Notes under the pieces: generated by a model | Told to the model about the DNA's origin: nothing | The model's input: only the letters and a program-made list of their open reading frames with translations | The model's database searches: none | In this document: in pieces, positions 35,603 through 50,858 of the stretch | Layout of the letters: the number at the start of each line of letters is the position of its first letter | How positions within the stretch are numbered: position 1 is the stretch's first letter | Source: Levilactobacillus acidifarinae DSM 19394 = JCM 15949 | GTDB taxonomy: Bacteria > Bacillota > Bacilli > Lactobacillales > Lactobacillaceae | Reading direction: 5' to 3' | NCBI RefSeq assembly: GCF_001434835.1 | Contig: NZ_AZDV01000003.1 | Coordinates: 124,001-188,000, forward strand | DNA length: 64,000 nucleotides | Position numbers and translations under genes: made by a program

Positions 35603-36500
35603 CCGTGGGGTCCTCCTGCTCTTGGTCTAAATGGTGATAAACTCGGTAGACGTCCTGCTTCTTCAAGTGGCGTAAGTTGGCCACTTCCTTAATCGCGGCA
35701 TTCGGTTTCTCCCCGGCGGCAATCAGCCGGTCCACCTGTACCGGAATTGGTTCGCTCAAATCTACAGTATCTTCTTCCGTGGTAGGATGCGGATTGCCCC
35801 CTACCAACACGACAAATTCACCACGAACGGTGTCGGTTGCCGCCCAGTCGGCCAACTCACTCAGACTCCCCCGTAAGAATTCCTCGTAGCGCTTAGTTAA
35901 TTCACGACACAAAACTGCGGGTCGCTCCGCTCCTAAGCCGGCGGCCAGGTTTGCCAACGTCTTCTTCAACCGGTGAGGGGCTTCATAGAAAATCAAAGTT
36001 TCCGGTCGTTGCGCCAGTTCGCCGATTTCAGCCTTTTGGTCCTTCGGCTTACGGTCTAAAAACCCGTAAAAGTAGAACGGTTGCGGCGCCAAGCCGGAGG
36101 CAATCAACGCCGTTAGTCCCGCGTTAGCCCCCGGTAACGGGACCACTGGAATCTGCGCTTGCGCACACGCTACGACTAATTCGTGACCCGGATCGCTAAT
36201 GGACGGCATTCCCGCATCGCTGACCTGGGCAATTTGTTGGCCTGCTTGGAGTTTAGCCAATAATTGGGGGATTCGTTCCTGCGTGTTGTGTTCGTGAAAA
36301 CTAATTTGCTTGGTGGTGATGTCAAAGTGATTTAATAGTTTTTGCGTGTTCCGCGTATCTTCGGCGGCAATCAGGTCAACGGCCTTAAGGGTCTTAACGG
36401 CCCGAAACGTCATATCGTCTAAGTTACCAATGGGCGTGGGAACCAGGTATAAGCGCCCGACCGTCTCGGCTTGAAAGCTCCGTTGTCGTTGCATCGTCAC
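35592..36500 (-). CDS. rsmI: 16S rRNA (cytidine(1402)-2'-O)-methyltransferase RsmI
   Basis: SAM-dependent methyltransferase modifying C1402 in the ribosomal P site. 302 residues, tetrapyrrole-methylase fold: LYLVPTPIGNLDDMTFRAV, SDAGMPSISDPG, and PLPGANAGLTALIASG. GTG 36498-36500 lies 6 nt after AGGAGG (36507-36512, inside the end of yabA) and is favoured over ATG 36494. Member of the conserved yabA-rsmI pair. Confidence 0.95.
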   Translation of the reverse strand: MTMQRQRSFQAETVGRLYLVPTPIGNLDDMTFRAVKTLKAVDLIAAEDTRNTQKLLNHFDITTKQISFHEHNTQERIPQLLAKLQAGQQIAQVSDAGMPSISDPGHELVVACAQAQIPVVPLPGANAGLTALIASGLAPQPFYFYGFLDRKPKDQKAEIGELAQRPETLIFYEAPHRLKKTLANLAAGLGAERPAVLCRELTKRYEEFLRGSLSELADWAATDTVRGEFVVLVGGNPHPTTEEDTVDLSEPIPVQVDRLIAAGEKPNAAIKEVANLRHLKKQDVYRVYHHLDQEQEDPTDER

Positions 36501-36510
36501 AAAATTCCTC

Positions 36511-36852
36511 CTACTGATCGCGATAAATAACTTCTAAACAAAAGGCACACTCTTCGTCTTGCTTCCGCCGGGTGCCATAAAACTCCCGACAAACGTGAAA
36601 CCCCTCTTCGTAGAGTTTCTCCAAGACCTGACGCGACTTAGATAACCCCTGTTGCGTGGTTTCCGGGGCTTCTGGCAAGGTCCGTTGGAGCTCACGCAGT
36701 AGATCACGCAGGTGTTGGTTTTCAATTTCGAGTTCGGCGTTTTGTTCAAAGACCTGCGTAAGTTCGGTTTGCAAGTCACTGAACTGGGTCAGTGTGGTTT
36801 CCAACTGGCCCTTTAAATCCTTGAGTTGATCGTAAACTGCTTGTTTATCCAA
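36511..36852 (-). CDS. yabA: Replication initiation control protein YabA
   Basis: Negative regulator of DnaA-driven initiation that bridges DnaA and the DnaN clamp. 113 residues: N-terminal coiled coil (about 1-60, Gln/Leu/Glu heptads) for tetramerisation and a C-terminal zinc-binding module with HVCREFYG and CAFC. The start is TTG 36850-36852 after AAGGGGTGG. Lies 25 bp after holB. Confidence 0.94.
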   Translation of the reverse strand: MDKQAVYDQLKDLKGQLETTLTQFSDLQTELTQVFEQNAELEIENQHLRDLLRELQRTLPEAPETTQQGLSKSRQVLEKLYEEGFHVCREFYGTRRKQDEECAFCLEVIYRDQ

Positions 36853-36877
36853 ATTGCCACCCCTTTTTCTAAACGAT

Positions 36878-37897
36878 TTAACGCCGTGGAATCTGCGCTA
36901 GAATTTGTAACGTCAAAGCTTCTAAAATGGCCTGAAAGTTTAGGTTGCCGGCTAACTGACCGCGCGTTGCCAAGGTCAACGTCACCACGGCCACTAACCG
37001 GTCAACCCCTAAACGCTGGGCAATCTGCTGACTGGTCTGGGCTACTTGCGGATAAGCCAATGTCTGTGCGTCAACGGCGCCCGTTTGTTGGCGCAAAGCG
37101 TCGTGCCAAATCTGCACGAGCATGTCGAGGACGATTCCCTGGCGATCCCGGTTGGTTGCTAACGGGACTAATTCCGTTTGAACGCGAACGAAGGCCCGTT
37201 CGTCGCCCTGACAGCAAGCCGTAAACCAATGTTCAATACTCTTTTGGGCCGTCGTCAACCAGTCATCAACCATCAACTCTTGGGCCGCCGTCACGCTTTC
37301 GGTCAACGTCGCCAGGAGGTTTTGTTGACTAGGCGCCACGCCCACCTCGGCCAGCGCGGCCGCCAATTCCTTGGGCGCGACCGGCAGGAGGTCCACAATT
37401 TGGGTTCGGGACAGGATGGTCGGTAAGATCAGATTCTTATTGGCCGTCAGTAGCAAGGCCACGGTGTTGCCCACCGGTTCCTCGATAAATTTCAACAGGC
37501 TATTGGCCGCCCCCGTGGTCATTCGTTCGATCTGATCGACGATGAAGATTTTCTGGTTACCTTCAACCGCACTTTTGCTGAACTCAGCCTTCAGGTAACG
37601 TACCTGATCAACCTTGATTCGCTGACCGTCCGGAACGACCCGGATCACATCGGGATGATCTCCCGCGATGATGCGTCGACACTCGGCGCACTGCCCACAG
37701 GGTAACCCGGCCGGGGTAACGTTTTGGCAGAACAACCGTAACGCAATCGTCTGGGCCAAGTCTTGCCGGCCGGTCCCATCCATGCCGTTAAACAGGTAGG
37801 CGTGAGACAATTGCTGCGTGCCAATCAGGTGCATAAAGTGGTCAACTAACTGCGGTTGCAGTCGCTGGGCGGTCGTAATCGGCGTTTCTTCGGTCAT
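36878..37897 (-). CDS. holB: DNA polymerase III subunit delta'
   Basis: Clamp-loader component working with DnaX and delta. 339 residues: AAA+-like domain with the degenerate P-loop FNGMDGTGRQDL, zinc module CQN..CGQCAEC (four Cys at about 62-78), sensor 1 LLLTANKNLILPTILSRTQ (SRC-like SRT). The frame opens 36 codons upstream within darA, but ATG 37895-37897 (MTEETPITT) has GGGGGAG 5 nt before it. Confidence 0.95.
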   Translation of the reverse strand: MTEETPITTAQRLQPQLVDHFMHLIGTQQLSHAYLFNGMDGTGRQDLAQTIALRLFCQNVTPAGLPCGQCAECRRIIAGDHPDVIRVVPDGQRIKVDQVRYLKAEFSKSAVEGNQKIFIVDQIERMTTGAANSLLKFIEEPVGNTVALLLTANKNLILPTILSRTQIVDLLPVAPKELAAALAEVGVAPSQQNLLATLTESVTAAQELMVDDWLTTAQKSIEHWFTACCQGDERAFVRVQTELVPLATNRDRQGIVLDMLVQIWHDALRQQTGAVDAQTLAYPQVAQTSQQIAQRLGVDRLVAVVTLTLATRGQLAGNLNFQAILEALTLQILAQIPRR

Positions 37898-37907
37898 CGC
37901 GCTCCCC

Positions 37908-38237
37908 CTAGAACTGGTGGAACTGTTCAACGGGCAGAACGAAGACCGTGGCACCACCGACCTGAACTTCCACCGGATACGACGAGGTGTTGTCCAACTG
38001 TGCATCTAGGTTAACCGGTGGCGTCATAAATTGCTGCCGGGTATGACTGGCCGTCTTGATTAGGTCTAAAACTTCTGCGACCCGATCATCCTCCAACCCA
38101 ATCATGTACGTGGTATTTCCGGATTTGAGAAAGCCCCCGGTGGTTGATAACCGGGTGGCCCGAATATCGTGATCAATAAACTGATTGCTCAGGCGGTTGG
38201 CGTCCTTATCCTGAACAATGGCAATAAGCATTTTCAT
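37908..38237 (-). CDS. darA: PII-like c-di-AMP receptor DarA (YaaQ)
   Basis: Small trimeric PII-like protein that binds c-di-AMP; output partner unknown in most species. 109 residues beginning MKMLIAIVQDKDA, with the conserved RATRLSTTGGFLKSGNTTYMIGLED loop region that forms the nucleotide site. ATG 38235-38237 follows GGGAGGAA; the longer open frame into tmk is not used. Its presence with a KimA-like transporter in this window fits c-di-AMP-linked K+ homeostasis. Confidence 0.93.
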   Translation of the reverse strand: MKMLIAIVQDKDANRLSNQFIDHDIRATRLSTTGGFLKSGNTTYMIGLEDDRVAEVLDLIKTASHTRQQFMTPPVNLDAQLDNTSSYPVEVQVGGATVFVLPVEQFHQF

Positions 38238-38250
38238 TTGGGTTCCTCCC

Positions 38251-38904
38251 TTAAGCACCAGCGGTAAAGTAACCGCTGGCCGTTTGCTTAATCAAGGTCA
38301 ACGCGGCCGCCACCACCTGATCGGGGGTTTGGGTCGCATCAATCAACTTGATTCGTTGTGGGTTGGCCGCTTGCAAGCGCAAGTACGCCGCCCGCACCCG
38401 GTCGTGAAAGGCCGTCTTCTCAACGTCTAACCGATCGACTTGCTGGGGGTCGCGGTGGGCCTGAATGCGTTGTAACCCCACCTCAGCAGGAACGTCGAAG
38501 TAGATGGTCAGATTGGGGAGTAGCCCGTCCGTCGCAAACTGATTCATCTGCGCTACGGCCTGTTCGCCAATCTGTCGACCAGCCCCCTGATAAGCCACGG
38601 AACTGTCAACGTACCGGTCACATAAGACCAATTGGTCGGCCGCTAACGCCGGTAAAATGGTTTCGGCCAAGTGTTGCCGCCGCGCCGCCGCGTAGAGCAA
38701 CGCTTCGGTCCGGTAGTCCATGGCCGTATTGGCCCGGTCTAAAATAATGGCGCGGATGCTTTCGGAAATGGCATTTCCCCCGGGTTCGCGGGTCACCGCT
38801 AACCGGTCACCCAAAATGGGTTGCAACGCCGCGGTAATCGCGTGCAGGGCGCTGGTCTTCCCCGCCCCATCCGGACCTTCAAAACTAATAAACGTTCCTG
38901 ACAA
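38251..38904 (-). CDS. tmk: Thymidylate kinase
   Basis: Phosphorylates dTMP to dTDP. 217 residues: P-loop FEGPDGAGKTSAL, the DRYVDSSVAYQG motif, and LID region RIQAHRDPQQVDRLD. The start is TTG 38902-38904; no ATG fits, and a promoter -10 (TATAAT) lies only about 27 nt upstream, giving a short leader. It heads the tmk-darA-holB-yabA-rsmI operon after the inserted polysaccharide locus. Confidence 0.95.
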   Translation of the reverse strand: MSGTFISFEGPDGAGKTSALHAITAALQPILGDRLAVTREPGGNAISESIRAIILDRANTAMDYRTEALLYAAARRQHLAETILPALAADQLVLCDRYVDSSVAYQGAGRQIGEQAVAQMNQFATDGLLPNLTIYFDVPAEVGLQRIQAHRDPQQVDRLDVEKTAFHDRVRAAYLRLQAANPQRIKLIDATQTPDQVVAAALTLIKQTASGYFTAGA

Positions 38905-38930
38905 AATTTTTCGACCCCATTTTTGTGTAT

Positions 38931-38936
38931 ATTATA
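38931..38936 (-). promoter_or_regulatory. tmk -10 element
   Basis: TATAAT on the minus strand, 26 nt before the tmk TTG start. No good -35 at 17 bp. It gives the tmk operon its own promoter, needed because a terminator separates it from the polysaccharide locus. Confidence 0.55.
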
Positions 38937-39050
38937 GAAACTAGCTAATTCTAGGCATTGATAAATCTATTGTACTTTAATTCAGAAATGATGTCTATTT
39001 CCGAACCACGGCAATTGCTTGCGTGAGCGCCTTCATTTTGAGATTAACCA

Positions 39051-39085
39051 AAAAGGCCAGAACACCTGGTGGGTCCTGACCTTTT
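39051..39085 (-). terminator. Terminator after the polysaccharide operon
   Basis: Minus-strand AAAAGGTCAG / CTGGCCTTTT hairpin (G-U pair) with a T-run, 9 bp after the GGDEF-like gene stop. Confidence 0.85.
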
Positions 39086-39093
39086 AGCTTACC

Positions 39094-39951
39094 TTAAACG
39101 TCGTATTCGGTTTCCTTGATCCCGGCGTTCATTAGGTCGTACGGGGACTGCATCTTGCTGGAATCCCAGCTAGCAACCCCCACAACCAACCGCACGTCGA
39201 GATTGGACAACTCCTCATCGTTCGCCAACGCCTTCGCAAAATTGCCTTTGATCCGGTTAGCGGCGATGCTCGCGCCACTCGCATCCGTGAACAACAGCAC
39301 CGCCCAGGTTGGGTTACTGCGATCCAAAAGGTACGTGATGTCGTTCGTCCGCATGGCCCCTTTGATGGTCTGCGACACCAGCTGTAACAGCGCTCGTAAC
39401 TGGGCATCGCTCAACATGTTGCGCATTTCTTGAAAATAACGAATCCGCACGATCATGGTGGTTACCGGTAAATCAAAACGCCGGTTCGTTTCCGTGAACA
39501 CCGCGGTATCTTCGATGTAGGAAACCGTGGTCCGCAAGTTGGTATCCTCGTCAAAGGCTCCCCGTTCCACCAAGTCACTTTGCAACTTAGCATTTTGCGT
39601 TTGCAGGCGCCGAGAATGGGCCGTCATGCCGTAAAACGTCAACGACAACAATAACGGAATAAACAACCAGTAGACCAGGGCCCAGGGGACCAGGTCCGCC
39701 TTGATCTGATTTTCGTAAATGACCGTGAGCAACTGGGCAAAAATAAACGCGAGGTTACTCAATAGTCCGGTAATCAGACCCCAGAAGTAGGTGATCAGAA
39801 TCAAACAAATGGTAACGCCCAGGAAGATGGCGTTGAGGAATAAGTAATGGGGCCGCGTGGCGGCCATCCCAATGGCCAGCACACTCATCCACCCCAGAAA
39901 AGCAATCAGGTAGACGTCGGTCAGCCAACTTTCCCGCGTATTTTTATGCAT
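39094..39951 (-). CDS. Membrane protein with degenerate GGDEF domain, probable c-di-GMP receptor
   Basis: 285 residues: four helices at about 12-30, 36-60, 62-80 and 88-108, a short coiled linker, and a GGDEF-fold domain (about 140-283). The GGDEF signature is replaced by SNPTW (212-216), so cyclase activity is not expected. The inhibitory c-di-GMP site motif RxxD is intact as R201-T-N-D204 at the usual spacing before the signature. This pattern matches PssE of Listeria, a receptor that activates polysaccharide synthesis. Last gene of the locus, overlapping the BcsB-like gene by 8 bp. Receptor role is inferred from motif and context. Confidence 0.8.
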   Translation of the reverse strand: MHKNTRESWLTDVYLIAFLGWMSVLAIGMAATRPHYLFLNAIFLGVTICLILITYFWGLITGLLSNLAFIFAQLLTVIYENQIKADLVPWALVYWLFIPLLLSLTFYGMTAHSRRLQTQNAKLQSDLVERGAFDEDTNLRTTVSYIEDTAVFTETNRRFDLPVTTMIVRIRYFQEMRNMLSDAQLRALLQLVSQTIKGAMRTNDITYLLDRSNPTWAVLLFTDASGASIAANRIKGNFAKALANDEELSNLDVRLVVGVASWDSSKMQSPYDLMNAGIKETEYDV

Positions 39952-42076
39952 GTGGCTTCCCCCTTCGTGACCGGTGCAAGACGCCGTGCTTGTTTAGTAA
40001 CATCAAAATCGCAATCAGTAAGATCACGATGGTCCCTAAGGCGATGCCGAGATACACCAGCAGTTGCTGGTTACGGTGAACCCGTTGACGCAAATTGACC
40101 TGCGTGTCGATCAATTTATTTTTCTTGAACCGGTAACCGCGATGATCGTTATCGCGATCCACCACGACGGCATCCCCCGGGTACTGGGCCATATTCTTTT
40201 GGTTACTGATCTGCTCGGCGGCTCTGGCCGCGTCATCCGGTGTGGCTCCCGTGATCACTAATAATCCCTTTTTCGCGTTATACGGTGACCGCAACAATTG
40301 GGCCGTCCCCAAGGTGGCGCCGTAACGCGGTTCGATACTTAATTTCTCGTTAGAGACCAAGCGGGTGCCCGCGGCGTCAAATTGAAAATACAGCTTGTCG
40401 TTTAACGTGCGGATAAATGAATTTTGGCGCGGGGTTCCCAGGGCAATGACGTTATCGTGAGCCAAAACCCGTTGGCTGGGTTGGTCCTGATAAAACGTGA
40501 TCTGCCCCTGATTACTCTGTGCGTAATTGCCAATTAGATTAAATAAGCTACTAAGCGTGCGGTAATCGGCCAACGTCAGGATCTTCGGCCGAACCACGGC
40601 TAAATGATCATAGGTCGAGTTTTGCAAAAATAAATTTGGGTAATTGCTAAATAGCAGATCGTTGCCCGGGGCCGACCGAATATTGGCGGTACTTGCGGGC
40701 TCAATGCTGGCCCAAGGTGTCTGGGTATTCGTGCTGTTGGCCGCCGTTTGAATGGGTAAGTCTAAGGCGATGCGGACGGTAAAGCTATTCCCGAGGGCCA
40801 TTCCCTTGGGCAATTTGACGGCAAACGCATCGTTGTTCGCCCGACGCGCCGTTAACTTGTGGCTGCCAATGGCGGTGTCGTTGATGTAGACCGTCGCCAA
40901 TGCCGAACGGAAATCCACATTTTTGGCGTAGCGTAAGGCCACCTTAATGGTTGAGCCATCCGCGTTATTGCGATCGACCGGCAAACTGACGAAGTAGCGC
41001 CGTTCTTGATGATTGGCGCCCACCAACCGATCGGAAGTGGTCGTCAGTTGGTAATGGTCATCATAGTTCAGTGAGGAGGTGAAGGTCTGACTATCGCTGC
41101 GAACGGTCTCGCTGGGATACGCGGTTTCGCGCATTAATTCCGCGTTAGCCACGTACCGGCCGGCCTTGATCAATAAAGCCCCCGTGGGTGCCGTGACGAT
41201 GAGGTAGTGTTTGCCCTGGGCGTCGTAACGCTTGATGACGGCCTGGTTGGTCACCGACTGGGCGGAGACGTGGCGTTTGAACCGTGCCGGCAGGTGGTCG
41301 TAGGTCGCCACAACGACCTGATAGTCGGCCCGTTGCGCGGTCCGGTCCGCCATCGTGGTGACCGGAATCTGTTGGGCCTCGGTCGTGATGACCCGGGCCT
41401 CGCCGGCTAAGGACGCCATACTGGCCGTGAGCTCCGCGTTACTGGCCTGGGCGGGCACTTCGATGGCCGACTGCCGGTTCACGATGGTGTCCGGTCCCGA
41501 GAAGTGGTCGTAAAACGAGTTCACGTTAGCGTTGGGTTGTTTTACCGTGTACTCGCAGTTCACGTTCGAGCGTGCGTCAACGGTCAACCAGTTGGCTGGC
41601 GTTTGGGCTAACCGGTAGTCGTGTTTTCCGTCACGCGTCAGAATCTGACCACTAATCTTCAACGAGTTGCTGCCACGCAAGAGTCGCAACGGGATCGTGA
41701 CCTGCTTGGTTTGTAGCCCACTTTTAGCCACTGGCCGGAACGAATAGAACTTAGTCCCGTTCACGGAAACCGTGATGTCGGACAGTTGCCGGTCTGCCAA
41801 TTGTGACACCTGATAGTTCAGGTTCAGCGTCGCGTGCTTCATCTGCCAATAATCGACCTTGATGAAGTCACTACTGGTCTCAACCGCCTGACCCGACAAA
41901 CTCATGGTCGTATTTTGTAACGGCTGCGTGTAAGTCTGCGTCGTGGCCTTAGCCGCGGCGCTGGGTCCAGTAAGCAGGCCCATTAACACCACGAAAAGTC
42001 CCAACAGAAGCTGCCCAACACTACTGGTAACGTTTGGTCTTATACCACTTTGCTTGTTGATGAAAAACTTGTTCAC
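39944..42076 (-). CDS. BcsB-like polysaccharide synthase accessory subunit
   Basis: Exported, membrane-anchored protein of 710 residues: signal peptide (about 1-44, ending SAAAKA), a large extracellular beta-rich region resembling the BcsB/cellulose synthase regulatory subunit (LNLNYQVSQLADRQLSDITVS and RLLRGSNSLKI near the start), and a C-terminal helix (about 665-690) with a basic tail. It likely guides the nascent glycan out of the synthase. GTG 42074-42076 overlaps the GT2 gene by 56 bp and has no clear Shine-Dalgarno; a start nearer the hydrophobic core is possible. Confidence 0.8.
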   Translation of the reverse strand: MNKFFINKQSGIRPNVTSSVGQLLLGLFVVLMGLLTGPSAAAKATTQTYTQPLQNTTMSLSGQAVETSSDFIKVDYWQMKHATLNLNYQVSQLADRQLSDITVSVNGTKFYSFRPVAKSGLQTKQVTIPLRLLRGSNSLKISGQILTRDGKHDYRLAQTPANWLTVDARSNVNCEYTVKQPNANVNSFYDHFSGPDTIVNRQSAIEVPAQASNAELTASMASLAGEARVITTEAQQIPVTTMADRTAQRADYQVVVATYDHLPARFKRHVSAQSVTNQAVIKRYDAQGKHYLIVTAPTGALLIKAGRYVANAELMRETAYPSETVRSDSQTFTSSLNYDDHYQLTTTSDRLVGANHQERRYFVSLPVDRNNADGSTIKVALRYAKNVDFRSALATVYINDTAIGSHKLTARRANNDAFAVKLPKGMALGNSFTVRIALDLPIQTAANSTNTQTPWASIEPASTANIRSAPGNDLLFSNYPNLFLQNSTYDHLAVVRPKILTLADYRTLSSLFNLIGNYAQSNQGQITFYQDQPSQRVLAHDNVIALGTPRQNSFIRTLNDKLYFQFDAAGTRLVSNEKLSIEPRYGATLGTAQLLRSPYNAKKGLLVITGATPDDAARAAEQISNQKNMAQYPGDAVVVDRDNDHRGYRFKKNKLIDTQVNLRQRVHRNQQLLVYLGIALGTIVILLIAILMLLNKHGVLHRSRRGKPHA

Positions 42077-43274
42077 GAATATACCCCACCATTCCGTATG
42101 CTGCGACGGCTAACCACATCTGACTATAGACCACGTACATGAAAATAATAATCAGCAGATTGCTGACCGTCATCTCCCCCTTTTCCGTGGTAATCGTCAC
42201 AAACGTGCTAATCACGAATAGGACGATGGCAAACAGCCACAGCGTATTGTTGAATCCCCGTAAGTTCGAGTGTGCGACGCCCGCGACCGACAAGACAAAG
42301 ACCGAATCGGACAGTAGTAACGACGTCATTAATAAGAAGTAGACCGACAAAAAATAGATTAAATCGAACCGAATCGCCCGCCCCGTCTTCCGAAAAATCA
42401 ACGGTAGGTTCTTTAAAATCACGTAGATGTTTCCCTTCACCCAGCGCGTCCGTTGGTGAAACCAGACGTCTAAGGTCTGTGGTTCCTGCTCCCAGGTCAC
42501 GGCCTTCGGTTGAAAATTAATTCGGTAACCCAGGCGATAAATGCGGAAACTGATTTCGGTATCCTCGGCTAAGGCCTTGGTATCCCAGCCCCCGACCCGC
42601 TCTAACAGGGACCGTCGAATCACGTAGTTGGTCCCGGGAATCGTGCAGAGCTTGAAAAGCCGTAAGCGACCGGCTTGGGCCATCCATTGAAACGACAGCG
42701 TTTCAACGTTGATGAACCGGGTCAGTAATGAAGCATTCTTGTTCCGTGTTCGAAACTTACCAATCACGGCACCGTAATGGTCGTCCTGAAGTAACTCGGC
42801 AACCAGAATGCGCAATGCCGGACGTTCGGGCGTGTTATCCGCATCGTAGACCGAAATGACGCTGCCCTTAGCCCGTTTGAGGGCAATGTTTAGGGCGTTG
42901 GACTTTCCCTTGCCCCCCGTGTGTTGGTCCGTATTGATCACTTCCAGGTTACGTTGCGGATAGGTCGCCTGAATCCGGGCTAACAGCTCGGCCGAATTAT
43001 CGCTGGAGTTGTCGTTGATCACAATAATCTCGTAACGGTCGTGGGGATAATCGAAGTTGAGTAGCGCCAACACCGTTTTGACAATCACGACCCCTTCATT
43101 ATGGGCGGGGACCATGATGGTCACGAACGGCGGCACCGCCGGTAATTCTGGTGCGGGCGTGCGGACGTCCTTGAGGTACTGGGTATACCCAGCCATGGTC
43201 AAGATCAGGTTCACCACCAGGATGCCCCAAATAGCCAGAATGGCAATAAACACCAAGACATCTAAAACGCTCAT
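42021..43274 (-). CDS. BcsA-like family 2 glycosyltransferase (polysaccharide synthase)
   Basis: Processive membrane glycosyltransferase of 417 residues: one N-terminal helix (about 5-27), GT2 domain (about 50-280) with VPAHNEG, NDNSSD, metal-binding DAD (144-146), catalytic EDTE (237-240) and the product-binding QRTRW (274-278), then four to five C-terminal helices forming the channel. No PilZ domain follows, unlike proteobacterial BcsA, so c-di-GMP control would have to come from the degenerate GGDEF protein. AAAGGAGG precedes the ATG. Sugar donor unknown. Confidence 0.88.
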   Translation of the reverse strand: MSVLDVLVFIAILAIWGILVVNLILTMAGYTQYLKDVRTPAPELPAVPPFVTIMVPAHNEGVVIVKTVLALLNFDYPHDRYEIIVINDNSSDNSAELLARIQATYPQRNLEVINTDQHTGGKGKSNALNIALKRAKGSVISVYDADNTPERPALRILVAELLQDDHYGAVIGKFRTRNKNASLLTRFINVETLSFQWMAQAGRLRLFKLCTIPGTNYVIRRSLLERVGGWDTKALAEDTEISFRIYRLGYRINFQPKAVTWEQEPQTLDVWFHQRTRWVKGNIYVILKNLPLIFRKTGRAIRFDLIYFLSVYFLLMTSLLLSDSVFVLSVAGVAHSNLRGFNNTLWLFAIVLFVISTFVTITTEKGEMTVSNLLIIIFMYVVYSQMWLAVAAYGMVGYIREQVFHQQAKWYKTKRYQ

Positions 43275-43321
43275 AAAGTCCTCCTTTGCAGTTTAGCGAG
43301 ACAACCCTTGCCTGGTTACTT

Positions 43322-44887
43322 TTACCGCATGAACTTCCGGCGGTAGATCCGCCGTCCCACCACCAAAAACGTGACCAGAACCACGGTAGTCACGGCGAAG
43401 AACCCCAGTAGGATCCAGCCTTGATACTTGAAGTAGTTCCCCAAAACGACTTTATTCTTGCGGGTAAAATGGTAGCGCGGTACCCCGGTCGCCTCCGCCC
43501 CAATCGTAACGGCCCGCCCATTTAACAGATAGGTTCCCCGCCGATAGGCGAAGGTAGCCGAGGCACTGACTAGGCTGGTTTGCAACTGTTGCTGCGGCTG
43601 ATACCAGGTGACGGGTAACGCCTTAATTTGCCGCATCGTGGCCGTCAGTTGCCGCGCCGACGTGGGCATGGCCGTGGTGATGGCCGTGGGTAAGGCCAAG
43701 TGATCCGGCGTCAGTTGCCCGTCACGTTGGGTCTGTAACGACCGCAACGACAAGCCAAACCAGGTTCGATCGTAGGTCGCACCTAGATTGTCGCGTTGCG
43801 CGTAAACGGGCGTCTTCGGGTTGGGCAACAACAAAACGTCGCTGGCCCGTTGAAGACCGTGACGCCGCAATAGTTTGTCCTGGTTCCAATACGCCGGCGC
43901 ACTTAGTCCAACCGGAATCACCTGACGTTGCCCTAACTGGTTTAACTGGGCCACCATCAGCTGTTCCAAGGCGTTGCCACTCTTGGCGTTAGCGGCGTGG
44001 ACCGTGGGCGTTTGCAGAAAGATCACCCCGTTATCCCGCTCGATGGCTCGTAACGTCCGGGTAAAGGCGCTAAAGCCTTGTAAAGCCGTGTTATTGGCCA
44101 CGGTCGTGGTGCTGACGGCAAAGGGAATGTTGGCGGCTGCCAATTGCTGACCCAATTGCCGTAAGCGCCGCAAGTCACTATACGGCGTTACCCCGGTAAT
44201 GGTCAGTAAGGGCCGCTGCGTCCCGGTCTGGTGAAACAACTTGGCGACCGTGCGCATCGCCAGTACTAGGCTCAGACCGTCGTTCGCTAGGTACGGTAAG
44301 TACCCGTAACGCCCCCGCACCGTTCCGTAAGCGTAAGTCGTCCGGTCGGTTCCCTGAATCTGTAATTGACCTAGCTGTCGGTCCCCGTGACTCGGGAGCA
44401 CCGTCAGATTTTCGCTAAATGGCAGGAGTTGCCAGCTTTGCCCCGACCGCAACGTGAATTGTTGGTGATAACGGGTTTGCGGCGTGGCGTGGAGGTGGCG
44501 GGCTTCCGCGTCACTGAGGTCCTGCCCAATGTGTAACTGCCGCCCCGTGAACCGCTCTCGATCCCGGGTAAAGGCCGCGTTGTGCCCGTGATCAGTTGGC
44601 CAATTGACTAGCGTCACGACCCCCTGGTATTTCTGGGTGGTCAGTTGCCCGGCATGGTAGTGCGCCAACGCCTCAGTCTGAGTCGGAACCCCCACGCTAG
44701 CCAATAACCGCTGTAATGTGGCGATCTTGGCTGGCCCGTCCGCACGGGGATTACGCGCATCGTAAACGATGAGGACCCGTTGCGTTTTAATCTGAGATTG
44801 GGCGTGCGCCACGGGCCCGTTCAAGAGGGCTAGTCCCAGACACAAACTCCCGAATAACCCGACGAGGCCTAGAATCCGTTTAGTCAT
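43322..44887 (-). CDS. Exported membrane-anchored protein, DUF2334-like (deacetylase fold)
   Basis: About 521 residues: signal peptide (1-30, ending VAHAQ), an extracellular domain resembling the DUF2334/NodB-like polysaccharide deacetylase superfamily (RVLIVYDARNPRADGP at the start; LLTITGVTPYSDLRRLRQL and IPFAVSTTTV around 230-265), and a C-terminal helix (about 490-512) with a basic tail. Canonical deacetylase metal ligands (HxxxH, DD) are not evident, so activity is uncertain. TTG 44893 is possible, but ATG 44887 lies 7 nt after AGGTG. Overlaps the upstream gene by 8 bp. Confidence 0.65.
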   Translation of the reverse strand: MTKRILGLVGLFGSLCLGLALLNGPVAHAQSQIKTQRVLIVYDARNPRADGPAKIATLQRLLASVGVPTQTEALAHYHAGQLTTQKYQGVVTLVNWPTDHGHNAAFTRDRERFTGRQLHIGQDLSDAEARHLHATPQTRYHQQFTLRSGQSWQLLPFSENLTVLPSHGDRQLGQLQIQGTDRTTYAYGTVRGRYGYLPYLANDGLSLVLAMRTVAKLFHQTGTQRPLLTITGVTPYSDLRRLRQLGQQLAAANIPFAVSTTTVANNTALQGFSAFTRTLRAIERDNGVIFLQTPTVHAANAKSGNALEQLMVAQLNQLGQRQVIPVGLSAPAYWNQDKLLRRHGLQRASDVLLLPNPKTPVYAQRDNLGATYDRTWFGLSLRSLQTQRDGQLTPDHLALPTAITTAMPTSARQLTATMRQIKALPVTWYQPQQQLQTSLVSASATFAYRRGTYLLNGRAVTIGAEATGVPRYHFTRKNKVVLGNYFKYQGWILLGFFAVTTVVLVTFLVVGRRIYRRKFMR

Positions 44888-46379
44888 CGTCAATCACCTG
44901 CCGATCATCCGCGTGCCAGAGACGGTGGTTTAAGAGATCCGCCACCAAAATGACCAACACTAAATTCAAACTGATGGCAGCTAATAACAGGTTTTGTGCC
45001 AGATTCGTCACCCCGGTGGTCAAGATAACCAGCAAGGGCACTAATAAAAGATTCAACAATAACCCCGTCACGAGAAAGAAGCGAACGACCCCGTAAGTTC
45101 GCCGTTGGTGCAGGTCGTTATAGGCCCCGACCCCAAAGACTAACAAGAGTGCCACGACCAGTAACGCATCAAACGCAAACCGCCGGGGAAAGAAGGTTCC
45201 GGCCGTGGTACTGGCTAGCGTGAAGAACTTTACCTGGGCGCCCTTCGCGTGACCACTGTGGGCGGGATAATTCCCCACCGACTTGACCTGCGTGGCCATC
45301 AGGTTGGCCGCCGCCAAGTCCAGTAATTGCCGCAATTGTGGCCAATGATGGCCATAGTAGGTCAATACCCAGCCGACCCCCACGTACCGAGTTAGGTGTT
45401 GCCGCACGTAGTGGGTATCCGGGCTCAACTCGGTAAAGTTGACCGGATAGTAGTCATTTTCGCGCATCAAAGCAAACTGTTGGCTAACGCCCTGCTGGGT
45501 CAACGCCCGACTAGGATCCTTCGTCTCGTGCAATACCCCGTGGGTGAAGGCCTGATAGCGATTAACACTGCGCTGCTGGGGCGTGAGGGCCAAGCCCATG
45601 GTCACGCCACAGTCGACCAAGACCGTCATTCCCAGCACTAGTCCCAACCGTTGAGCGGGATGTTGAAAGACAAAGAAGCCGCCCAGGGCCATGATCAAGT
45701 AGCTGACCGTCAACGGCGCATTTTGCGGTTGACTGGTAATTAACAGCGTCGCACTCAAAAAGTACAGACTCATCAACCGGCCCCGGTGCGTGGTGGTTCG
45801 GGACAAAAGCAGTAAACTGCCCACCATCATCATCGCGGTGATCAACAAAATAGGCGCCACGTAAAAGGAATTGAAAGCCAGCGTCAACGACGTATCGGCA
45901 AAAATCACCACGATCACCGCCGCCAAAACGTAACTGCGAATCCGCCGGTACGGTTGGGTCAACGCCCGCGTCAGTAAACCAACCGCCCCCACGAAGGGCA
46001 GATAGTAGACCAGACCCAAGCAACGTAAATCAAACCGTGTCGAACTAAATATTAATTTATTTAACCCAATCGCTAAACCCACAAATAAGCGTTGCGACGA
46101 AAAGCCACCCAATCCCGCCGACCGGACTTCGTCGTAATACCGCATCAAACCAAGTTGGGGGTTGAGGTACCCGACCACCTGATAACCATCTAATTGATAT
46201 AACCCGTTATTGGCCAGCGTTTGGGCAAAGCTCCCGTTATCGGCTAGGCCGTGGATGGGCGGAATAAACAGGAGTCCCCCGACTACTATAGCGGCAAACA
46301 ACATGGCAAAAACCGCCGGGGACAGCCACCGGGTAACGCCCCGACCGGCGCGTTGAGTCAATTGTCGTATTCGTTGCAT
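44880..46379 (-). CDS. Polytopic membrane protein, possible GT-C type sugar transferase
   Basis: 499 residues with about eleven to thirteen helices. The first extracellular loop (FIPPIHGLADNGSFAQTLANNGLY) carries an acidic/Asn motif in a position typical of GT-C glycosyltransferases, and recalls WsfD-like hexose transferases. Another loop after helix 8 contains the large LMRENDYYPVNF region. No firm family assignment from sequence alone. Good GGAGGG Shine-Dalgarno. It lies between the GH8 lipoprotein and the DUF2334-like gene in a polysaccharide operon, suggesting decoration or export of the polymer. Confidence 0.55.
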   Translation of the reverse strand: MQRIRQLTQRAGRGVTRWLSPAVFAMLFAAIVVGGLLFIPPIHGLADNGSFAQTLANNGLYQLDGYQVVGYLNPQLGLMRYYDEVRSAGLGGFSSQRLFVGLAIGLNKLIFSSTRFDLRCLGLVYYLPFVGAVGLLTRALTQPYRRIRSYVLAAVIVVIFADTSLTLAFNSFYVAPILLITAMMMVGSLLLLSRTTTHRGRLMSLYFLSATLLITSQPQNAPLTVSYLIMALGGFFVFQHPAQRLGLVLGMTVLVDCGVTMGLALTPQQRSVNRYQAFTHGVLHETKDPSRALTQQGVSQQFALMRENDYYPVNFTELSPDTHYVRQHLTRYVGVGWVLTYYGHHWPQLRQLLDLAAANLMATQVKSVGNYPAHSGHAKGAQVKFFTLASTTAGTFFPRRFAFDALLVVALLLVFGVGAYNDLHQRRTYGVVRFFLVTGLLLNLLLVPLLVILTTGVTNLAQNLLLAAISLNLVLVILVADLLNHRLWHADDRQVIDDD

Positions 46380-46408
46380 CCCGCTTCCCTCCTCTTACCT
46401 AGTCATTG

Positions 46409-47545
46409 CTAATAATCGGCGGCATTTAAGGCCGTTAAATTGTTAAAGGAATAGCTTTGCCCGCTCTGTGCATTCCCGATTCCGCCCTGAATCGCCACGT
46501 GACTGGTCACCTGATCTTGCCAAACCAAAGCCATTGCTCGCCGGTAATTGGTCCGATCGTTGACCGTTGCAAAGACCATGGCGGCCAGAGCGTAGTTCGC
46601 CGCCGACTGCCCCGAATCGCTCACGCTACCGGCAGTGGTGTAGCCGTTGTACAGCTTCTTATCCTTAACCTGTTGTTGCAACCAGCTGTGGCTTGCCGTC
46701 TTCAATTTGCCAATCTCGGCCAGATGTAAAAGCACCTCTAGGGCTTCAGACGTGTTCAAAGAACGGTCACTATAGGTCAGTTGTGGCCAGTTAAAGCTCG
46801 CTGCGTACAGGGGAAAAACGTCACCCAGATAGCCACCCCGCACAACCTTCAGTTGTTCTTGGTACGCCTTACGGCCACTAGCACTTCCCTGTTCGTAAAA
46901 CCGGAGCGTCTTGAAGTCAATATAGGCCAAGCTACTAGTTTTGGCCGTTTGGCGACTCTGCGGATTGTAGTAATCGTAAACCTTGCCGTCCTTTAACGCC
47001 CCCGCCTTGAGGGTCGCAAAGTGATTGGCCGCTGCTTGCCGGTAATGGGTCGTTTTGCTCAACGCATCGTACAGATTCAGGGCCTTAATGATCCGCAGAT
47101 CATCCAACGTGGCATTGACCGCAAACCGTTTCTGGCTCCGCGGATCGTAGCGGTAACTGAATTGGCCATGGTCCCCGAAGGTCTTTACCGTGGCACGATA
47201 AAACGTGCGAAACGCCGCAAACTGGTGGTGTCGGGCCAAATAAATCAACCACATCCCCGCCGATTCACTCAACATTTCGTGTCCCGTGGCGCTGGCCGCT
47301 TGCCGCGTGTCCGTGTCCACGTAGTTGGTATACAGGCCTTCTTTGGTCACCAGTCGATTGGCGATAAATGCCGCTAACGAGGACTGGTGCTGGTGATCTT
47401 GAGCCGTATGTAAAATTGCTTTAGTCTTCAAAAACACCCGGGGCGACTGTTGCGGTGCCGCCATGGTCTGGGAACGACTCCGACAACCACCTAACATTAA
47501 GAGTAGCAGCAGGCCACCCAGCCCCAGCCAAATTCGTTTCCCCAT
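46409..47545 (-). CDS. Lipoprotein, glycoside hydrolase family 8-like
   Basis: 378 residues: lipoprotein signal with lipobox LGGC (Cys21) and an (alpha/alpha)6-type catalytic domain from about residue 55. Candidate catalytic residues are Glu94 in MLSESAGMWLIYL and Asp148/Asp149 in NATLDDLRIIKALN, matching GH8 positions (SE-G and DxD/DLR). Synthase loci of cellulose (BcsZ) and Listeria pss (PssZ) also have a GH8 enzyme that trims the polymer. First gene of the six-gene operon. Confidence 0.78.
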   Translation of the reverse strand: MGKRIWLGLGGLLLLLMLGGCRSRSQTMAAPQQSPRVFLKTKAILHTAQDHQHQSSLAAFIANRLVTKEGLYTNYVDTDTRQAASATGHEMLSESAGMWLIYLARHHQFAAFRTFYRATVKTFGDHGQFSYRYDPRSQKRFAVNATLDDLRIIKALNLYDALSKTTHYRQAAANHFATLKAGALKDGKVYDYYNPQSRQTAKTSSLAYIDFKTLRFYEQGSASGRKAYQEQLKVVRGGYLGDVFPLYAASFNWPQLTYSDRSLNTSEALEVLLHLAEIGKLKTASHSWLQQQVKDKKLYNGYTTAGSVSDSGQSAANYALAAMVFATVNDRTNYRRAMALVWQDQVTSHVAIQGGIGNAQSGQSYSFNNLTALNAADY

Positions 47546-47585
47546 TATCCTGTGACCCCTTCATTTTGTTTGGTATGAAATAACT

Positions 47586-47600
47586 TAGTTAACGCTTTCA
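47586..47600 (-). promoter_or_regulatory. cre box upstream of the polysaccharide operon
   Basis: Minus strand TGAAAGCGTTAACTA fits the cre consensus TGNAANCGNWNNCWW at every defined position. It lies 40 bp before the GH8 start codon, within the likely promoter/leader region, so CcpA control is expected. Confidence 0.65.
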
Positions 47601-47652
47601 CTTTAGCATGCTTTACCCGCCAAAGAAATCCGTCTTGGTCAGTTTACCGAAA

Positions 47653-47695
47653 AAAAGACGGTTGACCAACCCTTAGGGCTGGCTAACCGTCTTTT
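47653..47695. terminator. Bidirectional terminator between yaaL and the polysaccharide operon
   Basis: AAAAGACGGTT / AACCGTCTTTT with an inner CCA/TGG stem. It ends the dnaX-ebfC-recR-yaaL transcript and insulates the polysaccharide operon. Confidence 0.9.
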
Positions 47696-47721
47696 GACGC
47701 AAAAATGACATGACGCCATTA

Positions 47722-47985
47722 TTAATCTTGAAATACCGTCGCTGCAATGTGCTTGCTCCGCACGTTACGCCGCCGGGCTTCCCGGTACAAAAAGAGGTAG
47801 ACTTGCCGGGCCAGCGCCGTGTTTGCCGTCATTTCGTTATCGGTATCGGCGATGGCCTCTTGGGTCTGCTTGGCGTGGTCCCAGTTATCCTTAGCGGCAT
47901 CAATGGCCGCCAGGAGCTGATCATCGTACGTGCTGCGCAACGCCTTTAGGTGACGTTGTTGCTTACGTTTTTTTTGTCCAAACAT
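47722..47985 (-). CDS. yaaL: YaaL family protein (DUF2508)
   Basis: Small cytoplasmic protein of 87 residues, highly charged and helical (FGQKKRKQQRHLKALRSTYDDQLL, ending in RQVYLFLYREARRRNVR), matching the DUF2508/YaaL family found after recR in Firmicutes. Function unknown. The frame opens at a GTG overlapping recR, but ATG 47983-47985 lies 9 nt after AGGAGG, which itself overlaps the recR stop. Confidence 0.88.
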   Translation of the reverse strand: MFGQKKRKQQRHLKALRSTYDDQLLAAIDAAKDNWDHAKQTQEAIADTDNEMTANTALARQVYLFLYREARRRNVRSKHIAATVFQD

Positions 47986-47999
47986 GGTCGTTACCCTCC

Positions 48000-48599
48000 T
48001 CACATTTCGGTCCGGCCCTCGACGGCCTTAAACAAGGTCATCTCATCGGCGTACTCGATATCACTCCCAACGGATAGACCGTGGGCTAAGCGGGTCACCT
48101 TGATCCCCGCCGGCTTAATCAAGCGCGACAGGTACATGGCCGTGGCTTCCCCTTCCGGCGTCGCGTTGGTCGCGATAATCACTTCTTTAATGGCCGGATT
48201 TTTCTGTAGCCGGTTGATTAGACTGGTAATATTTAAATCCTCCGGTCCCTTGCCCTCAATCGGTGACATGACCCCGTGCAAAACGTGATACAGGCCGTGA
48301 TATTCCTTCATACGCTCCATCACCATGATGTCCTTGGCCTGTTCGACCACCAAGACATGCGATTGATCACGCGTCTTGTCGGCACAGATGGTACAGGGAT
48401 CACTTTCGGTAATATTGCCACAAATCGAACAAAAGTGCAGATCCCGCTTCGCCGAGATCAACGCCTTAGAAAACGCCGTCACGTCGTCTTGCGCCATATC
48501 AATGGTGAAAAATGCCAACCGCGTGGCCGACTTTTGCCCGATACCGGGAAGTTTCATGTAACTATCAATCAGCTGCGCAATAGGTTCTGGATACTGCAT
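48000..48599 (-). CDS. recR: Recombination mediator RecR
   Basis: Acts with RecF/RecO to load RecA at gaps. 199 residues: N-terminal HhH ([15 protein letters not shown]), zinc finger [16 protein letters not shown], and TOPRIM domain with [13 protein letters not shown] and [19 protein letters not shown]. Between ebfC and yaaL as in Bacillus. GAAAGGA precedes the ATG. Confidence 0.97.
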
Positions 48600-48686
48600 A
48601 GTCTCGTCCTTTCAAAGTTGGAACTGGTCGTCACCGGGCATCATTGGTCACGCCACTAACACCCGCCATGATCGACTCGCGCTGGT

Positions 48687-49013
48687 TTACATGCCGGGGA
48701 TATTCATTCCCTGCGTGTACTTGCCTAAGGTTTGCTTAGTTTGCGCCTCGACTTGGCCTAAGGCGTCGTTAACGGCCGCCACGACCAAATCGGCTAGCAT
48801 ATCGGGATCGTCCGGATCGATAGCTTCCGGCTTGATGGTCAAATCCGTCATCTTCCGTTCGCCGGTGAAGGTTGCTTTGACCATGTCGTCTGGTGAAGCG
48901 CCGGTGAAGGTTTGCGCGTTTAAGTCAGCTTGGTCCTCCGCCATCTTCTTTTGCATCTGCCGCATTTGTTTCATCATACTACCCATGTTACCCATATTAC
49001 CCATGTTCCGCAT
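48687..49013 (-). CDS. YbaB/EbfC nucleoid-associated protein
   Basis: DNA-binding protein of about 108 residues in the YbaB/EbfC family, with the family core [16 protein letters not shown] and [21 protein letters not shown]. The N-terminus is Met/Gly/Asn-rich with tandem NMG units. Several starts exist (TTG 49031, ATG 49019, ATG 49013); ATG 49013 is 9 nt after AAGGGA and is preferred. Between dnaX and recR, the standard place. Confidence 0.93.
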
Positions 49014-49034
49014 ATCCATCCATCCCTTCAAATT

Positions 49035-50858
49035 TTAATCAGTTTTGATATCGACAATGTTTTTACCGAAAAGTTCCTCGGCCTTAGTCACTACCGGATT
49101 AGCCTGTGGCGGCTGGGGGCCCGTTTCGTTCGGTGCTGCAACCGGCGCCCCAGCATCCGTGGTCGGTGCTGTCGAAGACGGCCCCGTGCCATCAGCTACC
49201 GGTTGGGGTTCCGTGTGCGGTTTAAGCTCACTCTTGTGGGCGGTCAGATAGTTCTTACGAATCTCCGGCCACTGGTCCTTAGGCACGAACACAATCGGTA
49301 ACGCGGTGCCGACCATGCGATCCAAACCGTTTTCTAGCGCATCGGTCAGTTCCTGGTCCGTCGTGGCCTTCTGGTACAAAAACGAATAATCGAACGCCAC
49401 GATCACCCCGGAATCGGCCGCCGCCACGGGTTGAGACACCTTCATCACGGCCCGCTGGGTCACGGTTAGGCTATTTAACAAATCTGGCCAAACCTGTTGT
49501 AATTGGTTGAGCTTCTCCCGGGTTGCCGCGCCCAAGACCGGATTGATCTTCGCCAGGTTCACTTCCTGCGTGTGCGTGGCGTTGACCCGGGGCTTAGCCG
49601 CCGGACGTGCGGCGGGCTTGGCGACCGGCGCCTGTTCCAGCTGTTGGACGGCCACCTTCAGTTGGTCCACTTGATGTTGTAACGCCGTAACCGTGTCGGC
49701 CGTGGCCGGGGTTTGTACCGGTCCGCCAGCCGGCGCTGCCGGCGGTGACGCCACCGCGCTGGCGCCTTGCGTCCGCCCGATCTCGGCCAACTTAATGGTT
49801 AAGATTTCCAGGTACACGTCGGGATGCGTGGTAAAGCGCATTTGTTGTTGAATCGCGTTGAGTTCGTTGATCATGGCGTACATGGTGGTTGCCGGGGTCT
49901 TGTCGGCCAGAGCTTGAAAGTCCTCACTGACACTACCCATCTCGGCTTCTTCCACCAGCTTAGGGGCCTGTTGGTACAATAATAGGTCCCGCGCGTAGCT
50001 AATGATGTCCTCGGTGAACCGCTCGGCATCCTTGCCGGCCTCTAAGACCGATTGTAACGTCGCTAATCCCGCCTTGGTGTCGCCTGCTAAGACCTGTTGC
50101 ACGTAGGTTGCCAGCAACTCGTGGGTGACGCTTCCGGTGACCAGAAGCGCATTATCTAACGTGATTTCGTTGTCCCCGAAGGACAGGGCCTGATCCAGAA
50201 TACTTAACGCATCCCGCATCCCCCCTTCGGCGGCCTTGGCAATCACCTTAATGGCTTGCTCATCGTAGGTCACGTGTTTTTGATCCAAGATATAGGTCAT
50301 CCGGTGATAACTATCGCTGGCGGCGATTCGTTTAAAATCGAACCGTTGGACCCGTGAAATAATGGTCGCCGGAATCTTGTGGGGTTCGGTAGTGGCCAGG
50401 ATAAAGATGACGTTGGCCGGCGGTTCTTCCAGGGTCTTTAATAATGCATTGAACGCCCCGGTCGACAGCATATGCACTTCATCGATAATGTAGACCTTGT
50501 AATCGGCCACCGTGGGTGCATATTTGACCTTATCACGGATATCCCGAATCTCTTCAACCCCGTTGTTGGAGGCCGCATCGATCTCAATCACGTCGTTTAA
50601 GGTTCCGGCCGTGATGGCCTTGCAGGTCTCACATTCGTTGCAGGGTTCCCCGTCTTGTTGGTGATGACAGTTGATGGCCTTGGCAAAAATCTTTGCCGCC
50701 GAGGTCTTCCCCGTCCCCCGAGGACCGGCGAACAGATAGGCGTGACTAATTTGATTGGTTGTAATCGCGTTTTTAAGAGTACGGGTAATGACTTCCTGAC
50801 CGATCATATCGTCGAAACGTTGCGGTCGCCAGACCCGATAAAGTGCTTGGTACGCCAT
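49035..50858 (-). CDS. dnaX: DNA polymerase III subunits gamma and tau
   Basis: Clamp-loader ATPase and organiser of the replisome, 607 residues. AAA+ domain with Walker A FAGPRGTGKTSAA, zinc finger CHHQQDGEPCNECETC, Walker B YIIDEVHML, sensor ATTEPHKIPATIISRVQRF; domain III to about 365, then a Pro/Ala-rich linker and a C-terminal tau region. No slippery A-run obvious, so a frameshifted gamma is not claimed. Own promoter upstream. Confidence 0.96.
   Translation of the reverse strand: MAYQALYRVWRPQRFDDMIGQEVITRTLKNAITTNQISHAYLFAGPRGTGKTSAAKIFAKAINCHHQQDGEPCNECETCKAITAGTLNDVIEIDAASNNGVEEIRDIRDKVKYAPTVADYKVYIIDEVHMLSTGAFNALLKTLEEPPANVIFILATTEPHKIPATIISRVQRFDFKRIAASDSYHRMTYILDQKHVTYDEQAIKVIAKAAEGGMRDALSILDQALSFGDNEITLDNALLVTGSVTHELLATYVQQVLAGDTKAGLATLQSVLEAGKDAERFTEDIISYARDLLLYQQAPKLVEEAEMGSVSEDFQALADKTPATTMYAMINELNAIQQQMRFTTHPDVYLEILTIKLAEIGRTQGASAVASPPAAPAGGPVQTPATADTVTALQHQVDQLKVAVQQLEQAPVAKPAARPAAKPRVNATHTQEVNLAKINPVLGAATREKLNQLQQVWPDLLNSLTVTQRAVMKVSQPVAAADSGVIVAFDYSFLYQKATTDQELTDALENGLDRMVGTALPIVFVPKDQWPEIRKNYLTAHKSELKPHTEPQPVADGTGPSSTAPTTDAGAPVAAPNETGPQPPQANPVVTKAEELFGKNIVDIKTD

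Follow-up and report, generated by a model that had tools for sequence, protein, structure and literature searches.

A Pss-type exopolysaccharide operon with a putative c-di-GMP receptor in Levilactobacillus acidifarinae and its relatives

The polymer of Listeria, reported as ManNAc-Gal (PMC5039582, citing Koseoglu 2015), requires pssC and pssE for its production, and the PssE domain binds c-di-GMP with a Kd of 0.79 µM (PMC4125290). The Listeria hydrolase PssZ, represented by structure 6R2M, was initially called GH8 and is now described as a GH126 enzyme, a family with five invariant residues (Glu84, Asp136, Arg139, Tyr194, and Tyr307 in the numbering of CPF_2247; PMC7479077). In Bacillus subtilis, both RxxD residues of YdaK are reported to be required for polymer production (PMC5422440), and little or no effect of the polymer has been described for wild-type Listeria and B. 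subtilis in the laboratory (PMC10172500, PMC5422440). The precedents found for c-di-GMP-linked polysaccharides in lactobacilli are the gts locus of Lactobacillus acidophilus and, mentioned alongside it, a degenerate EAL protein of L. plantarum, Lp_2714 (PMC6123363); of the two, a review (PMC11753222) names L. acidophilus gts. No report of a Pss operon in lactobacilli was found among the literature matches listed, whose coverage excludes subscription journals, and no binding or glycan experiment on a lactobacillus protein of this type was found in the literature. Here, we describe an operon located in a 64,000-nucleotide stretch of the L. acidifarinae genome, the whole of which is referred to as the window. 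Judging by its genes, the locus belongs to the already known Listeria Pss synthase kind; what is added here is its breadth in lactobacilli, the proposal that its deacetylase-like protein is inactive, and the joint disappearance of c-di-GMP enzymes and the RxxD motif.

Gene content and setting of the operon

A preliminary description of this DNA had proposed a tight six-gene operon with terminators on both sides, and coordinates, co-direction, spacing, and two stems all agree with this claim. In the ORF list of the window, six open reading frames (O1 to O6), all on the minus strand, fill exactly positions 39094-47545 between recR-yaaL and tmk:

47650..47694 (about), minus strand: intrinsic terminator between yaaL and O1 (sequence and fold, z -6.1 for 47656-47725)
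46409..47545, minus strand: O1, GH126-type hydrolase lipoprotein, 378 aa
44880..46379, minus strand: O2, GT-C-like hexosyltransferase of the WsfD family, 499 aa, multi-pass
43322..44893, minus strand: O3, exported membrane-anchored CE4-like protein, 523 aa
42021..43274, minus strand: O4, processive GT2 synthase, PssC orthologue, 417 aa
39944..42076, minus strand: O5, BcsB/PssD-type subunit, 710 aa (PF03170, E 4e-32)
39094..39951, minus strand: O6, PssE/YdaK-type receptor, 285 aa
39340..39351, minus strand: putative I-site motif R201-T-N-D204 of O6 (sequence motif)
39047..39084 (about), minus strand: intrinsic terminator after the O6 stop (sequence and fold, z -4.6 for 39030-39096)

Neighboring genes are separated by gaps of 29 or 47 nt or else have called overlaps of 8 to 56 nt, and the terminator between yaaL and O1 consists of a strong stem with a U-run. 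No consensus promoter was found upstream of O1 on the operon strand. Riboswitch control was rejected, no Rfam family reaching its gathering score in 36500-49500, as was the idea of viral ancestry or viral cargo, a single search of viral contigs for the O5 protein having given no match. In the 2.92 Mb genome, the window belongs to contig C25. Just past tmk, as part of the ordinary neighborhood, lies a c-di-AMP receptor gene (PF06153).

The synthase core is formed by O4 and O5. O4 is a processive GT2 enzyme (PF13641, 2e-32) with no PilZ domain among its Pfam matches, as had been claimed, and the PF03170 match of O5 bears out its assignment as BcsB-like. In O4, D88, D144xD146, E237-D238, and Q274-R-x-R-W278 (the QRxRW motif) are each invariant in 37 sequences, that of the window included; the protein shares 98% identity with its counterpart in Levilactobacillus zymae DSM 19395 and 65-66% with the Listeria GT2, PssC. 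O2, which occupies the PssA position of the Listeria gene order, had been taken for a GT-C-like membrane protein and matches NCBIfam WsfD (NF051875), a hexose transferase family, with 351.6 bits at a cut-off of 80. O3, at the PssB position, combines a ThuA/GATase1-like domain with a CE4-like (DUF2334-related) domain. Its description as DUF2334-like held in part: a remote relation and a CE4-like part with a NodB-like fold speak for it, but O3 of the window has no match in Pfam, and both metal-binding histidines are absent. At the ligand places, which we take to be those of a metal-binding Asp and two His with the role they have in CE4 enzymes, the window protein carries G234, Q294, and V298, and among 48 Pss-type O3 proteins compared, the Asp occurs in 14 and a His at either ligand place in none. 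On these grounds, an active deacetylase was rejected, and O3 is proposed to be a catalytically dead deacetylase. For its N-terminal domain, many GATase1-like and GH42 domains were returned at similar Z, and no function is read from this likeness.

The preliminary description had assigned O1 to GH8, an identity that was rejected. O1 matches no Pfam family up to E 1, PF01270 (GH8) included, and fits GH126 instead, with the solved structures 3REN (CPF_2247; E 8e-26) and 6R2M (E 1e-5) as its matches. The earlier label arose because PssZ itself was first called GH8; the 3REN entry was likewise deposited as 'family 8'. In the alignment to 3REN, E94, D148, R151, Y208, and Y318 of O1 fall on the five GH126 invariant residues (numbers counted by hand, one offset fitting all five), and they are conserved in 31, 31, 31, 30, and 31 of 31 sequences, respectively, the window included. 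A lipobox, LGGC, was recognized by eye in O1, and the lipobox pattern occurs in 23 of the 31 O1 sequences.

Distribution of the operon and the RxxD motif of its receptor

The BcsB protein of the operon was found in 39 of 201 sampled Lactobacillaceae genomes, representing 16 of 40 genera. All six genes stand in order in 26 of the 38 Lactobacillaceae stretches fetched besides the window (two of them with a split gene), O1 is last in three (L041, L056, L072), O2-O6 occur with O1 absent from the stretch in four (L058, L063, L066, L067), and five are disrupted or truncated at a contig end (L044, L049, L059, L061, L075). A genome-collection scan returned the exact order O1-O6 in 65 of the best 80 of 358 relatives, and these best 80 include Pediococcus acidilactici, P. 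pentosaceus, and Ligilactobacillus salivarius; the remaining 15 deviate through split or doubled matches, contig ends, an extra GT2, O1 in last place, or, in two Listeria, the lack of O1. Listeria cossartiae and L. farberi carry O2-O6 without O1. Paenibacillus loci show all six genes, and other Bacilli have a five-gene form, O1-O6-O3-O4-O5 (e.g., L107). The order O2-O3-O4-O5-O6 is that of pssA-E in two Listeria records (L213, L219) and in the Listeria-like loci L127-L129, so that the suspected kinship with Listeria pss is upheld as orthology to pssA-E by gene order and by sequence. The arrangement is far from chance and recurs across relatives. Within Levilactobacillus, where BcsB occurs in three of eight sampled members, the operon sits between recR-yaaL and tmk in 9 of 12 loci (L141-L147, L150-L153, L191); of the exceptions, L142 shows one side of this site (contig end) and L146 and L147 neither. 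Beyond these loci, both flanks were seen only in L148, from an uncultured Lactobacillus, and in L069, whose contig is that of L141. Transfer of the operon from one lineage to another may have occurred. Genes of the operon that are split or interrupted were observed for O3 in L046, O2 in L053 and L056, O5 in L075, and BcsB of genome G610, which contains stops; they suggest loss in progress or assembly errors. In one genome without cyclases, a 275-aa ORF of unknown kind (L135:7819-8646) lies between O4 and O5.

O6 had been described as a degenerate GGDEF protein, and three observations concur. Its GGDEF match remains below the Pfam cut-off (19.3 vs. 23.8 bits), the motif itself is lost, and the predicted structure (mean pLDDT 85.9, pTM 0.56) consists of four N-terminal helices followed by a GGDEF fold, for which a fold search returned 3ign, a GGDEF domain with c-di-GMP (TM 0.80 by target length, rmsd 2.2); by sequence, O6 has no match among solved structures up to E 1. 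The window protein reads RTND-ITYLL-DRSNP, placing RxxD five residues before the lost GGDEF motif, and the receptor of the Listeria-like locus L127 reads RTSD, five residues, DKDDA, as described for Lmo0531 (PMC4125290). RxxD is present in 33 of 37 Lactobacillaceae O6 proteins (window included), and GG[DE]EF in 0 of 78 O6 proteins from the best 80 of 358 relatives.

The absence of an active cyclase or phosphodiesterase from the window, noted in the preliminary description, was corroborated: a search for GGDEF and EAL genes turned up none in the window apart from O6, and the sole further match on the contig is an EAL gene at 221110, outside it. The same description had proposed searching the genome for c-di-GMP enzymes, and one intact-looking cyclase and three intact-looking EAL proteins were found there; a genome devoid of such enzymes, the first outcome it had named as refuting, was thus not observed, and its main reading, with c-di-GMP gating offered as an inference, is supported. 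The cyclase (374 aa) has an intact GGEEF motif and, by eye, no RxxD at the I-site place; its gene is divergent from a neighboring EAL gene (L138:8962-11063; C5:118000-137000 of this genome). The protein encoded by that gene and two further EAL proteins look intact and a fourth degenerate, as sorted by eye using motifs that we take to be diagnostic. The other GGDEF matches of the genome are O6, the c-di-AMP enzyme GdpP, and a degenerate protein of another synthase locus.

Against the single GGEEF cyclase of this genome stand three synthase loci, every one of which has a degenerate protein of c-di-GMP type to itself. One of the two additional loci (L136:6617-10138; C9:49000-68000) encodes a degenerate GGDEF protein (298 aa, without RxxD by eye), a GT2 (432 aa), and a true GH8 (PF01270, 7e-33). 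Proteins closely related to its GGDEF-like protein occur in 5 of 201 family genomes, or in 14 of 201 at E up to 0.001, and three weak relatives adjoin a GT2 that is 56-58% identical. The other locus (L137:8836-11561; C2:43000-62000) is gts-like, with a degenerate EAL protein bearing a membrane helix, a small membrane protein, and a GT2.

Across the 201 genomes, a GGDEF match with E below 1e-15 is present in 38 of 39 operon carriers vs. 45 of 162 others (Fisher p 1e-16, ignoring shared descent). A cyclase gene with GG[DE]EF lies within 10 of the 38 operon stretches, where about one would be expected by hand arithmetic. In the genus Furfurilactobacillus (L049, L050, L051, L053, L075, L179-L181), such a gene follows O6 directly, within tens of bases, yielding a seven-gene cluster with its own cyclase. 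For a comparison of receptors with their hosts, 98 loci were merged to 78 distinct receptors whenever the last 200 residues were identical, and RxxD was scored from aligned columns; a pattern demanding a particular next residue returned 69 of 78 in the best 80 loci, five of its nine misses holding RxxD by eye. Left out were L059, L061, L176, and L178 (no receptor; contig or stretch ends), 27 of the 80 best loci whose genomes lacked a cyclase search, the Listeria-like loci L127-L129, Paenibacillus-like loci, and the five-gene Bacilli. RxxD together with a cyclase was found for 64 receptors, neither for 10, a cyclase without RxxD for 4, and RxxD without a cyclase for 0 (Fisher p 8e-10, ignoring shared descent), where cyclase status denotes a hand-entered match with E below 1e-15, not motif-checked for each protein, in a search covering the GGDEF and EAL families. 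A tree of O4 and O5 requires at least three changes in cyclase status and at least four in RxxD.

The ten receptors with neither belong to Candidatus Paralactobacillus gallistercoris, three genomes of the Ligilactobacillus aviarius group, and six genomes of f4, a non-Lactobacillaceae family of the same order. These six are each 99-100% complete; GGDEF matches up to E 0.01 are absent from five of them, and the sixth gives just one, at 0.001. In Candidatus P. gallistercoris, the sole GGDEF match (6.5e-6) lies at the place of its O6, and the absence of a cyclase is less sure because this genome is a metagenome bin of 87% completeness. No EAL match was found in any of the ten, whereas ten comparison genomes each have at least one. 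RxxD is missing despite a cyclase in L058, L063, and L066, all of genus g20, and in L131; RxxD is therefore not retained in every c-di-GMP-proficient host. In the g20 receptors, the Arg is replaced by Ala (L058, L063) or Gln (L066), and in L058, the Asp by Asn as well; these genomes keep cyclase and EAL proteins, and their stretches contain no O1. We read the overall pattern as retention of RxxD because c-di-GMP uses it, followed by its decay once the signal is gone, with the synthase being retained for its product.

Proposed function and alternative readings

Taken as a whole, the locus is very probably a Pss-type, synthase-dependent exopolysaccharide operon, gated by c-di-GMP via O6 and likely to yield a ManNAc-hexose product. 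O4 would polymerize the sugar chain at the inner face of the membrane and pass it out together with O5. O6 would lie beside the synthase in the membrane, and we infer that c-di-GMP, bound at the RxxD site, switches the synthase on; the signal would be made by the single GGEEF cyclase and cleared by the EAL proteins. O2, being of the WsfD/PssA type, might attach a hexose side group, and O1 might trim or release the chain. O3 could act as a structural or guiding part, and the polymer is proposed to stay N-acetylated because O3 is catalytically dead. The most likely product would be, as in Listeria, a chain of beta-1,4-ManNAc bearing hexose branches, a polymer that may confer cell aggregation and stress tolerance.

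A ManNAc chain is our best guess, and a reasonably probable one, because the synthase is so similar to that of Listeria and because of the epimerase pattern. PF02350 (Epimerase_2), which we take to be UDP-GlcNAc 2-epimerase, the usual source of UDP-ManNAc, is present in this genome and in 39 of 39 operon carriers, counting G165, where it occurs only as two pieces (1e-57, 1e-52). Among 41 non-carriers of the same genera, it is strong in 33 (E below 1e-100), weak in 2, and absent from 6; the difference (p 0.005) ignores shared descent and concerns a family common in these genera that serves other pathways, so that its mere presence is a weak test. In genus g33 (Loigolactobacillus jiayinensis), PF02350 occurs in two of two carriers vs. 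none of three non-carriers. The gene adjoins the operon, upstream, downstream, or divergently, in L040, L045, L059, L070, L132, L135, and L221, i.e., in 4 of 38 Lactobacillaceae stretches, 2 of 9 at the order level, 1 of 4 fetched later, and 0 of 20 at the class level; the 4 cases of adjacency among the best 80 of 358 relatives come from four species that this count already includes.

That the operon encodes a genuine Bcs-type synthase for cellulose or beta-glucan, bereft of its PilZ domain and regulated otherwise, appears unlikely. O5 is indeed BcsB-type, and O4 matches the catalytic subunit of cellulose synthase (7lby, 7.5e-20), though it matches another GT2 equally (6yv7, 6.6e-20). O4 falls far short of the cellulose synthase equivalog (91 vs. 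699 bits) and also of PgaC (176 vs. 422 bits), PilZ is absent, and the hydrolase is GH126 rather than GH8; a cellulose synthase was rejected on the low equivalog score, the missing PilZ, and the orthology to PssC, an enzyme whose polymer in Listeria is reported as ManNAc-Gal (PMC5039582).

The remaining alternatives concern O6. It is quite improbable that the polymer is constitutive, with O6 as a structural subunit only and RxxD as a relic: the ten receptors that persist in genomes without cyclase and EAL matches imply that O6 can be kept without these enzymes, and four receptors lack RxxD despite a cyclase, but a relic would be expected to erode whether or not the host has a cyclase, and RxxD is found in 64 of 68 receptors of cyclase genomes, while GG[DE]EF is found in 0 of 78. 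That O6 senses another ligand here, such as c-di-AMP or a nucleotide sugar, we regard as very improbable; receptors without RxxD do survive elsewhere, and a PF06153 gene lies beyond tmk, albeit in an ordinary neighborhood, but RTND agrees in position and spacing with the I-site at which PssE and YdaK take up c-di-GMP (PMC4125290, PMC5422440). Returning to a c-di-GMP-gated Pss synthase, we lean slightly towards the broader view that it was freed from c-di-GMP several times, in at least three groups, in which RxxD decayed and the operon was kept, and that a wider range of lactobacilli, including Pediococcus and Ligilactobacillus salivarius, makes a Listeria-like ManNAc polymer. If this is true, receptors without RxxD either keep the synthase switched on at all times or respond to a new signal, and the two receptor states form a ready-made series for studying how a degenerate GGDEF protein gates a polymerase.

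Comparison with known systems

The Listeria-type Pss operon is widespread in Lactobacillaceae and predicts a defined polymer and a defined switch in these bacteria. It provides hosts other than Listeria for the study of the Pss machine, with natural receptors both with and without the c-di-GMP motif; hosts apparently devoid of c-di-GMP enzymes keep the synthase and lose the docking motif, so that the control step becomes directly testable. Proteobacterial bcs loci share a GT2, a BcsB-type subunit, and a hydrolase with the operon, the bcs hydrolase being a GH8 enzyme. They differ in that c-di-GMP is bound by a PilZ domain fused to BcsA (PMC4125290). The gts locus of L. acidophilus (GtsA, GtsB, PdeB) shares a GT2 and a degenerate c-di-GMP-domain protein and is c-di-GMP linked (PMC6123363), but its receptor is an EAL protein, and BcsB, WsfD, and hydrolase genes are absent. 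The ydaJKLMN operon of B. subtilis encodes GH126-type, degenerate GGDEF (with RxxD), DUF2334, GT2, and BcsB-type proteins and fits the five-gene form of Bacilli (PMC5422440, PMC13274460). In contrast, the locus described here has six genes, with the receptor last instead of second and a WsfD gene that is absent there. The DUF2334 Asp and both His are kept in 10 of 16 five-gene-type proteins (truncated L120 dropped; L111 included though its operon has a WsfD gene), whereas both His occur in 0 of 48 Pss-type proteins. Closest is pssA-E of Listeria monocytogenes, with the same order as O2-O6, a GT2 of 65-66% identity, and in PssE, a degenerate GGDEF protein like O6 whose RxxD precedes the lost motif by five residues. 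The hydrolase PssZ belongs to GH126, as O1 does; O1 comes first in the operon here, while it is absent from the Listeria pss stretches, and the single cyclase of L. acidifarinae compares with three in L. monocytogenes (PMC4125290).
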